Shown here piece after piece: positions 5,939 to 6,813 of a stretch of 64,000 nucleotides of DNA. The position numbers were made by a program, and so were the translations under genes. The stretch lies in the NCBI RefSeq assembly GCF_900167975.1, contig NZ_FUZU01000002.1, positions 937,501 to 1,001,500 of the forward strand, written 5' to 3'. Source of the stretch: Ohtaekwangia koreensis. GTDB lineage: Bacteria > Bacteroidota > Bacteroidia > Cytophagales > Cyclobacteriaceae. Each line of letters starts with the position of its first letter. The stretch's first letter is position 1. The notes beneath the pieces were generated by a model. The model saw only the letters and a list, made by a program, of their open reading frames with translations, had not been told where the DNA came from and ran no database searches.

Positions 5939-6012
5939 TGAACAAGTTCAATAAATGCCAGCGATTACTTTCTTAGAAATTCTGTAAGATAGATGGTAGA
6001 CTTTTTTTAGTG

Positions 6013-6066
6013 TGTGAGCTGAGGGGTTCGAACCCCCGACCCTCCCGACTAAAGTCGGGATACTCT
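6013..6066 (-). other. tRNA 3' fragment (distal copy), slightly decayed
   Basis: On the minus strand it reads AGAGTATCCCGAC-TTTA-GTCGGGA, then GGGTC and a complete T-arm (GGGGGTTCGAACCCC), then TCAGCTCACA. It matches the neighbouring tRNA-Val from the 3' side of the D-stem to the discriminator, except that the anticodon arm is replaced by a 7-bp hairpin with a 4-nt loop. The acceptor 3' strand has one substitution (AGCTCAC for AGCTCCC). No 5' acceptor strand or D-loop, so it is not a functional tRNA. Confidence 0.85.
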
Positions 6067-6316
6067 AAAAGTAAAAGAAGAACCGGGCGATTTTTTTTCT
6101 ACTCTTCCACGCTTTCACCTGTCGCTCTCTTTGATAGGCTAATTCTTTTGTTGCGTATTCTTCCGTGTAGATTATAGTCCAGTCTTTATACTTTGCTGTG
6201 AATCCATCATGATTGGAAAGATGTTTTCGTAGTCTTTCTTTTATGGGTTCCGTTGTGTGTCCGATATAGTATTTATCGGCATCGTTAGAATATAGAATGT
6301 AAAAGGTAGCGTTCAT
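6065..6316 (-). CDS. Small GIY-YIG endonuclease, distal copy
   Basis: An 83-residue single-domain nuclease. The N-terminus has the catalytic block [17 protein letters not shown] (GIY-YIG equivalents Y-I-L and Y-I-G), then an Arg helix ([12 protein letters not shown]) and the Glu-bearing helix [15 protein letters not shown], the order of the UvrC-type GIY-YIG (URI/YhbQ-like) family. It is identical to the copy at 6428-6679 over the first 76 residues except T4 for N4; the last seven residues differ (ARFFFYF). Its TAG stop falls inside the tRNA-like sequence (TAGAG). No partner methylase or transposase is nearby. It looks like the nuclease of a tRNA-linked selfish unit. Confidence 0.85.
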
Positions 6317-6340
6317 CCATTAACAAGATTGCATACAACG

Positions 6341-6371
6341 AAAAAGCCATCACAATGTGATGGCTTTTTTT
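6341..6371 (-). terminator. Terminator hairpin within repeat unit (distal)
   Basis: 13-bp perfect stem AAAAAGCCATCAC / GTGATGGCTTTTT with a 3-nt loop. It is identical to the hairpin right after the intact tRNA-Val, so the unit carries a copy of the tRNA terminator. Confidence 0.85.
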
Positions 6372-6375
6372 AGTG

Positions 6376-6429
6376 TGGGAGCTGAGGGGTTCGAACCCCC
6401 GACCCTCCCGACTGAGGTCGGGATGCTCT
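6376..6429 (-). other. tRNA 3' fragment (proximal copy)
   Basis: Minus strand: AGAGCATCCCGAC-CTCA-GTCGGGA, GGGTC, intact T-arm GGGGGTTCGAACCCC, and TCAGCTCCCA, identical to the tRNA-Val 3' end. The anticodon arm is again a 7-bp stem with a 4-nt loop (CTCA here, TTTA in the distal copy). The 5' acceptor strand and D-loop are absent. Confidence 0.87.
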
Positions 6430-6679
6430 AACGTTGCTGTATGACCTGTGCGATTTTTTTTCTACTCTTCCACGCTTTCACCTGTCGCTCTCTTTGATAG
6501 GCTAATTCTTTTGTTGCGTATTCTTCCGTGTAGATTATAGTCCAGTCTTTATACTTTGCTGTGAATCCATCATGATTGGAAAGATGTTTTCGTAGTCTTT
6601 CTTTTATGGGTTCCGTTGTGTGTCCGATATAGTATTTATCGGCATCGTTAGAATATAGAATGTAAAAGTTAGCGTTCAT
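6428..6679 (-). CDS. Small GIY-YIG endonuclease, proximal copy
   Basis: An 83-residue nuclease with the same domain as the distal copy: YILYSND...YYIGHT, the Arg helix ERLRKHL, and the Glu helix ELAYQRERQ. The C-terminal seven residues are AQVIQQR instead of ARFFFYF. ATG 6679 lies 25 bp after the terminator hairpin that follows tRNA-Val, so a tRNA read-through transcript or an internal promoter must serve it. The stop codon TAG is shared with the first bases of the tRNA fragment. Near identity with the distal copy at DNA level indicates a recent duplication or re-insertion. Confidence 0.87.
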
Positions 6680-6703
6680 CCATTAACAAGATTGCATACA
6701 ACG

Positions 6704-6734
6704 AAAAAGCCATCACAATGTGATGGCTTTTTTT
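6704..6734 (-). terminator. Terminator of tRNA-Val
   Basis: 13-bp perfect stem AAAAAGCCATCAC / GTGATGGCTTTTT with a 3-nt loop and T-runs on both sides, starting 4 nt past the tRNA 3' end. Confidence 0.88.
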
Positions 6735-6738
6735 AGTG

Positions 6739-6813
6739 TGGGAGCTGAGGGGTTCGAACCCCCGACCCTCTGCTTGTAAGGCAGATGCTCTGAACCAGCT
6801 GAGCTAAGCTCCC
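6739..6813 (-). tRNA. tRNA-Val (anticodon UAC)
   Basis: 75-nt cloverleaf: acceptor GGGAGCT / AGCTCCC with discriminator A, D-stem GCTC / GAGC, anticodon stem TCTGC / GCAGA with loop CTTACAA (anticodon TAC, Val), and T-arm GGGGG-TTCGAAC-CCCTC. CCA is not encoded. Its 3' part is repeated twice downstream with GIY-YIG genes. Confidence 0.95.

Follow-up and report, generated by a model that had tools for sequence, protein, structure and literature searches.

A small GIY-YIG nuclease gene with a conserved hairpin recurs beside tRNA genes across Bacteroidota as a candidate minimal homing-type element

We analysed a 64,000-nucleotide stretch of the Ohtaekwangia koreensis genome (contig NZ_FUZU01000002.1, positions 937,501 to 1,001,500; hereafter the window), in which a tRNA-Val(TAC) gene is followed by a tandem array of small GIY-YIG nuclease genes, each ending in a broken copy of the tRNA whose anticodon arm has been replaced by a palindromic hairpin. 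The same anatomy recurs across the phylum Bacteroidota at many tRNA genes, nuclease lineages track the identity of the tRNA, and orthologous sites are occupied in some genomes and empty in others. We propose, with a probability of roughly two in three (0.68), that the array is a selfish element of homing type, minimal in make-up and specific for a single tRNA arm.

Read on the minus strand, the array consists of tRNA-Val(TAC), a terminator, a GIY-YIG open reading frame (ORF), a tRNA-like copy, the terminator again, a second ORF and a second tRNA-like copy (Table 1). Each of its two 363-bp units thus comprises a terminator, an 83-amino-acid ORF and a tRNA copy; the units are direct repeats (300 nt, 99% identical, spacing 363), and a 68-nt tRNA-like repeat occurs three times in the window at the same spacing. 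ARAGORN called a single tRNA within the window, and Val(TAC) was found once among the 35 distinct tRNAs read in pieces of the source genome. The proximal fragment keeps the V-loop, T-arm and acceptor 3' strand unchanged, while the distal one carries a single acceptor change (CTCACAC for CTCCCAC). Hairpins with the loops CTCA and TTTA occupy the anticodon-arm position, and the TAG stop of each ORF sits within the tRNA-like bases TAGAG(C/T)AT; translated by eye, the fragment reads IPTSVGRVGGSNP. A first-pass annotation of the window had described the tandem layout, the exact T-arm and acceptor end of the proximal fragment, the two loops and the origin of the stop codon, and all of these are borne out by the sequence, ARAGORN, the ORF list, PF01541 and repeat analysis. 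The window nuclease matches nowhere else in the whole source genome (E 0.001), and the one hairpin pattern searched there, CCCGACNNNNGTCGGG, was found at the two array copies and nowhere else; on that single pattern, we rejected a dispersed REP-like hairpin in this genome.

Table 1. Features of the tRNA-Val(TAC) array, in window coordinates.
Feature	Position	Strand	Basis
Intact tRNA-Val(TAC), host gene	6738..6813	-	ARAGORN; Rfam RF00005
Terminator-like repeat (inverted, with a T run) downstream of the tRNA, copy 1	6704..6732	-	Sequence, inverted repeat I1
GIY-YIG nuclease ORF, unit 1, 83 aa	6428..6679	-	PF01541; catalytic residues conserved in alignment
Broken tRNA copy 1, from about base 23 of the 76-base gene to the 3' end, anticodon arm replaced	6375..6429	-	
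Hairpin TCCCGAC-CTCA-GTCGGGA replacing the anticodon arm, copy 1	6406..6423	-	
Terminator-like repeat, copy 2	6341..6369	-	Inverted repeat I1
GIY-YIG nuclease ORF, unit 2, 83 aa	6065..6316	-	PF01541
Broken tRNA copy 2 (distal), one acceptor-strand change	6012..6066	-	Sequence, repeat analysis
Hairpin TCCCGAC-TTTA-GTCGGGA, copy 2	6043..6060	-	

As the first-pass annotation had surmised, the arrangement is not unique to this strain. Homologues of the window protein are present in 115 of 148 Cyclobacteriaceae genomes, and a search with a 17-sequence alignment found homologues in 199 of 296 Bacteroidota genomes. Removal of exact duplicates reduced 277 entries to 260 loci, among which overlapping pieces such as L018/L108 may remain. 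These loci are best-scoring homologues rather than a random sample: L034-L107 are 74 taken in E-value order among the matches listed, L153-L181 come from the phylum search, L182-L241 are 60 of the phylum matches listed, minus the window family and its near neighbours, and L242-L321 are the best 80 of 368. Their common anatomy is an intact tRNA, a terminator, the ORF, a broken copy keeping the tRNA 3' end and a terminator, sometimes in tandem. One ORF piece was counted at 176 loci, two at 59, three at 17, four at 3, five at 3, eight at 1 and fifteen at 1 (n = 260). The array L035 (G096:C1:3224800-3232000) holds 14 GIY-YIG units and a partial one at tRNA-Asp; the other genome of its genus, G020, has one truncated ORF adjoining the same left flank. 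A long array, L018/L108 (G108:C8), mixes ORF-bearing units with many ORF-less broken tRNA-Val copies.

Association with tRNA genes is close and strand-specific. An intact same-strand tRNA lies at most 150 bp away in 199 of the 260 loci, upstream in 189 and downstream in 10, against a scale of 36 tRNA matches per 7.24 Mb in the source genome; no opposite-strand tRNA was found within 150 bp in any of the 277 entries. Of the others, 25 have a tRNA 151-600 bp upstream, 21 lie on pieces that end within 600 bp, and 15 have no same-strand intact tRNA within 600 bp. Even so, 54 of these 61 loci carry a tRNA-like flank scoring at least 44, where shuffled sequence reached a maximum of 27 (52 stretches), so that 253 of 260 loci have either a tRNA within 150 bp or a tRNA-like flank; five of the seven exceptions are on short pieces. 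Because identical anatomy returns in many genera with different tRNAs, we regard the association as more than chance. An assembly artefact is unlikely, since the arrangement is found in many assemblies, some of them single-contig (for example, G096 and G047).

Broken tRNA copies can flank the ORF on both sides. A 3' copy (score >40) is present in 160 of the 189 loci with an upstream tRNA, and 145 of the 160 reach the tRNA 3' end, most beginning some way into the gene. The anatomy is wider than first described: 52 of the 189 loci also have a truncated broken copy on the 5' side, and all 52 copies begin at tRNA position 1-3 and end at positions 45 to 71, copies reaching the tRNA 3' end being excluded from this set by design. 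The 5' and 3' copies of one locus can carry the same hairpin, as in L024 and L031. At ten mirror loci the intact tRNA stands downstream of the ORF (L171, L185, L192, L196, L199, L201, L206, L238, L239 and L310), and in all eight that were inspected by eye (all but L196 and L310) the ORF is preceded by a broken copy that retains the 5' end of the tRNA (for example, L171 and L206). Outer ends that are kept and a hairpin at an arm are as expected if an element had entered the tRNA gene at that arm. At L006, L008, L009, L014 and L033, the broken copies have, besides the anticodon-arm hairpin, another hairpin or insert within the T-loop. ARAGORN names hairpin-bearing copies tRNA-SeC (L080) and tRNA-Glu (L266), calls that are misleading for annotation.

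To describe the hairpin, we used 93 loci with the arm GAGCAnCTGCCTTnnAAGCAG in their intact tRNA (61 Val, 31 Arg and 1 Lys), in which 100 of 139 hairpin units could be anchored and the 39 unanchored were left out. Sixty distinct hairpin segments gave the consensus TYCCGAY...RTCGGRA. Watson-Crick pairs fill 400 of 420 cells, where 1000 shuffles gave 337 on average and 356 at most, with covariation at pair 2 (CG 43, TA 12), pair 6 (AT 46, CG 8) and pair 7 (TA 29, CG 28). The outer stem TCCCG recurs in other clades, and when the best perfect hairpin downstream of the first ORF is taken at each of 189 loci, it starts with TCCCGAC 30 times, TCCCGAT 26 times and TCCCGCC 8 times. A hairpin is present in 243 of 284 units and 61 of 175 control stretches, a weak control into which terminators and chance repeats are mixed. 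Because one arm has been swapped for a conserved, covarying hairpin, the fragment is not the simple tRNA duplication that the first-pass annotation had named as telling against its own reading.

The mismatched cells bear on the level at which the hairpin might act. A hairpin-bearing broken tRNA could serve as a 3' untranslated region or small RNA, itself the target of the nuclease or of tRNA processing in an autoregulatory or toxin-antitoxin-like circuit; the ORF stop does overlap tRNA-like sequence, a terminator follows, and the hairpin covaries. However, the anchored hairpins contain 20 cells that are not Watson-Crick, made up of 5 G-T, 10 A-C and 5 others (few events), so that G-T is not in excess as would be expected of RNA helices. 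When all hairpin-like repeats are counted, with terminators and chance repeats mixed in, the figures are G-T 156, A-C 131 and other 298. ORF-less copy arrays also persist, and the sharing of an arm between tRNAs, described below, points to the gene as the target. We consider a function at the RNA level highly improbable.

The nuclease itself is well conserved. Both window ORFs match PF01541 (GIY-YIG) at 57.9 and 58.3 bits against a cut-off of 22.6 (E ~1e-15), and Y6, Y17, G19, R28, H32 and E64 are invariant in an alignment of 17 diverse members; the conserved Tyr, Arg, His and Glu presumably have the catalytic roles in the window protein that they have in the GIY-YIG family. The ORFs are under purifying selection: the ratio of nonsynonymous to synonymous substitution rates (dN/dS) has a median of 0.093 and is below 0.5 in every one of 200 pairs (protein identity 70-99%, dS >0.1; pairs not independent), and it is 0.16 for the window against the congeneric genome G151. 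No NCBIfam model matched four element proteins at E 0.1, and PHROGs gave weak endonuclease matches only (best E 0.016 for the window protein and 0.0049 for L007). By profile, the nearest solved structures are UPF0213 proteins (1zg2, E 8.8e-15; 1ywl, E 3.1e-12), with a further match to the structure-selective nuclease SLX1 (7cq2, E 2.8e-7). A single GIY-YIG ORF is all that the units read encode, in the window and at other loci, and they contain no tyrosine or serine integrase, and the window proteins are GIY-YIG only, with no Y1/HUH transposase.

Kinship to UPF0213 proteins and a structure-selective enzyme also suits hairpin-bounded transposition, in which the nuclease would act on the element's own hairpin, as a cruciform or single strand, free a hairpin-ended piece and swap it for a tRNA arm able to form a hairpin, loosely resembling REP hairpins with RAYT, or IS200/IS605, but with a GIY-YIG enzyme. 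The outer stem TCCCG is common to different tRNAs and hosts, the hairpin takes the place of an arm that is itself palindromic, and the two copies of a locus can share it, as at L024 and L031. Against such movement, the single pattern searched is confined to the two array copies in the source genome, and we judge this route unlikely, though worth keeping in view.

Which tRNA is occupied depends on the nuclease lineage. The 199 loci with a tRNA at most 150 bp away supplied 194 cores for a FastTree phylogeny (five short cores were dropped), on which tRNA identity changes 43 times, compared with 118.8 times on average and never fewer than 112 in 200 shuffles. Within the window clade, 80 named loci are mostly at Val(TAC), in Cyclobacteriaceae and others, or at Arg(TCT), in Chryseobacterium, Flavobacterium, Elizabethkingia and a few others; Cognataquiflexum aquatile, Anditalea andensis and Mongoliibacter ruber, among the named loci, we take to be Cyclobacteriaceae. 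Single loci of the clade were called Lys, Pro and Glu, and seven have no upstream tRNA on the piece, one of these having Val downstream. The Val and Arg host tRNAs differ in acceptor and T-arm and have in common the anticodon arm, the site of the hairpin.

This pattern extends beyond one clade. In an arm comparison of 193 loci, we asked how alike the tRNA arms are when nucleases at least 50% identical sit at tRNAs for different amino acids. Where the hairpin is in the anticodon arm, anticodon-arm identity is 0.80 for such pairs (796 pairs, 698 of them Arg-Val) and 0.48 for less related nucleases (2496 pairs), and T-arm identity hardly differs (0.68 versus 0.63). Where the hairpin is in the T-arm, it is the T-arm that is alike (0.82 in 4 related pairs versus 0.60 in 44 less related ones), and the anticodon arm is not shared (0.47 versus 0.48). 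Judged from these sequence comparisons, target choice appears to follow the sequence of the tRNA arm that holds the hairpin, with the caveat that the switch from Val to Arg is incompletely predicted.

The Val/Arg choice illustrates the caveat. In six of six Chryseobacterium genomes the Val(TAC) arm is CTGGTTTACACCCAG, not the target, matching expectation. Among eight other Cyclobacteriaceae genomes, the Arg(TCT) arm is ACTGCC..GCAGT in seven and GCTGCC..GCAGC in G065, near the target; in the source genome it differs from the target (20/28). Arm sequence as the sole cause of the choice was rejected, fitting the six Chryseobacterium genomes and, weakly, the Cyclobacteriaceae.

Transfer RNA genes are hot spots of recombination and known sites of integration, and the flanks described here are explicable if part of a tRNA gene was duplicated in tandem. 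The nuclease gene, small and of repair type, might then simply be a passenger, carried by tandem duplication during tRNA-gene recombination. A passenger, however, would need neither a single gene family, nor one strand, nor many tRNA types, nor a conserved, covarying hairpin exactly at a shared arm, all of which we observe in the one small gene family surveyed. We think this explanation improbable.

Gain and loss can be followed within genera. Across seven genomes of the window genus, the Val site holds two units in the window, one in G151, one in G150 (whose tRNA stretch contains Ns) and an ORF-less remnant in G148; the G151 flanks match those of the window at 89-94% identity. By eye, G149, G127 and G074 have no element within 820 bp after tRNA-Val(TAC), and because nothing but the tRNA stretch matches the window query, we count these as empty tRNA genes, not proven empty alleles. 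With two near-identical units in the window and one in G151, later tandem duplication is also a fit; the stepwise insertion next to the tRNA that was first suggested is one route among others.

Chryseobacterium provides orthologous sites. We searched 78 genomes of this genus with one Ser-Pro-Arg tRNA locus and read 70 loci with that left flank; G445 matches the C. jejuense locus L281 at 100%. At the tRNA-Arg(TCT) site, 11 genomes have a full ORF, 5 an ORF fragment, 12 a broken copy only, and 42 are clean, which establishes that empty sites exist. The room read after the tRNA was 4 bp in L385 (counted clean), 280 bp in L365, 431 bp in L411 and 638 bp in L399. In the clean genome G476, the left and right flanks stand 28 bp apart where L281 holds its array. 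Occupied or empty, the 70 loci do not differ in the 5' half or the anticodon arm of the tRNA. At L370 and L374, ORF-less repeats indicate that the copies outlive the gene. Loci with the T-arm variant CTCAGG..CCTGA number 2 among the full, 1 among the fragment, 2 among the broken-only and 8 among the clean ones; variants not following occupancy mean that a brought-in 3' half leaves no clear mark, and an element bringing its own tRNA 3' half is unsupported in this genus. Separately, the tRNA-Arg(TCT) 3' end of L418 (G494) is unlike the other 69 and resembles that of a tRNA-Pro, perhaps as a result of recombination.

Tandem arrays, the presence of at least two intact tRNA copies at several loci and the precedent of SegB in phage T6, as given in the excerpted account (PMC13096335), could also point to an amplification device useful to the host, by which tRNA genes are amplified or varied under tRNA-targeting attack. 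Yet it is the broken copy, not an intact tRNA, that repeats with the ORF in the arrays read, and presence is patchy and decaying inside one genus. We therefore strongly doubt that the arrays serve the host in this way.

These observations are most consistent with a minimal homing-type element: a small gene for a single-domain GIY-YIG nuclease plus a conserved palindromic hairpin, bounded by tRNA-derived sequence. In an element-free gene, the nuclease would cut or nick the DNA of one tRNA arm, predicted to be the anticodon arm of Val(TAC) for the window lineage. Recombinational repair from an element-bearing copy, guided by the tRNA-derived flanks, would then install the ORF and leave one intact tRNA gene adjacent, while the other copy would stay broken with the hairpin replacing the target arm. 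Unequal recombination or renewed cutting could subsequently yield tandem arrays, and decay would leave ORF-less broken copies. The broken copy has lost the target arm and would presumably no longer be a target; an intact tRNA with the arm remains alongside. The first-pass idea of a selfish element is well supported by recurrence, tRNA tracking, the empty, full and decayed sites and purifying selection; the cutting of a tRNA gene and the supply of its 3' end by the unit remain predictions.

Several points weigh against this model. The intact tRNA beside the ORF retains the presumed target and is identical to the tRNA of element-free relatives, so self-protection is a gap in the model. Intact-tRNA T-arm variants in Chryseobacterium do not track occupancy, and 17 of the 160 3' copies align from the first two bases, so they are not truncated at the inner end. 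The pairs behind the arm identities are not independent, the T-arm set comprises only 4 related pairs, and 86 of the 193 loci, with a hairpin in both arms or unclassed, were left out of that comparison. No window-clade element was seen at the near-target Arg(TCT) in the 8 sampled Cyclobacteriaceae genomes. Finally, the window protein found no vector in phage or plasmid collections (phages at E 1e-5). One viral-collection contig (L322, IMGVR_UViG_2905979941_000002) carries an Arg-type unit at its very end, which is insufficient for a vector claim.

More tentatively, and on balance short of what we would assert, the element may represent a new class of mobile element, among the smallest that are autonomous. 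In such a class, a nuclease of ~83 residues and an 18-bp hairpin would invade tRNA genes, even single-copy ones, by putting the hairpin in place of an arm and keeping an intact tRNA alongside, in effect a natural drive that carries its own rescue, and would have radiated across Bacteroidota into lineages for Val, Arg, Asp, Ala, Asn, Met, Gly, Thr, Ser, Pro and other tRNA arms. If so, a large share of the phylum's small GIY-YIG genes would be tRNA-gene parasites, showing how selfish DNA can exploit essential genes with rescue built in. Empty, full and decayed alleles within one genus would offer ready natural experiments, opening the study of how a single-domain nuclease recognizes an arm and how the adjacent intact gene is spared. 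The element may also lie behind unusual tRNA fragments and erroneous tRNA calls in annotated Bacteroidota genomes.

Known systems share parts of this anatomy. At the Rfam gathering threshold, no group I intron was found in the window or in L012, L018, L022 and L033; the only hits were tRNA and one SAM riboswitch (RF00162, 68.9 bits; window 63643-63763, minus strand). Among the matches listed in a search of the open-access literature, covering titles and the beginnings of abstracts, with subscription papers and preprints outside its scope, the arrangement was not described. The small GIY-YIG proteins of the UPF0213/YhbQ type and SLX1, the nearest solved relatives by profile, are not, to our knowledge, tRNA-gene parasites. 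REP/RAYT and IS200/IS605 elements are similar in pairing a conserved palindromic hairpin with a small nuclease gene and in leaving ORF-less copies, but the window protein is GIY-YIG rather than Y1/HUH, and the hairpin pattern searched is confined to tRNA copies. Tyrosine-integrase elements enter tRNA genes and restore the 3' end; like them, the window element has a tRNA stem-loop as its putative target, keeps an intact tRNA and has a displaced 3' fragment at its far end. Unlike them, its unit lacks an integrase, spans ~300-400 bp, encodes a nuclease only and has an arm swapped for a foreign hairpin.

The closest precedent is SegB, a larger protein than the window nuclease, and by analogy the window element may act alike. 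No close sequence relation between the two emerged, in that a search of the phage collection with the window protein, rather than an alignment to SegB itself, gave no match at E 1e-5. According to the excerpted account, SegB is a free-standing GIY-YIG homing endonuclease of T-even phages that in phage T6 cuts within tRNA genes and drives tandem amplification of a 718-bp unit of tRNA-Tyr and segB; segB often lies near tRNAs in phages, and self-sparing is open for SegB too (PMC13096335). Shared features are a GIY-YIG gene beside tRNA genes of many isotypes, tandem units of tRNA and nuclease, and microhomology of the tRNA with the nuclease gene's end (PMC13096335). SegB is phage-borne, its T6 repeat unit carries tRNA-Tyr and a truncated segB, and a hairpin-scarred broken tRNA goes unmentioned in the excerpts of that account (PMC13096335). 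The window element, by comparison, is chromosomal, encodes 83 amino acids, is distributed phylum-wide and is clade-specific for one tRNA arm.

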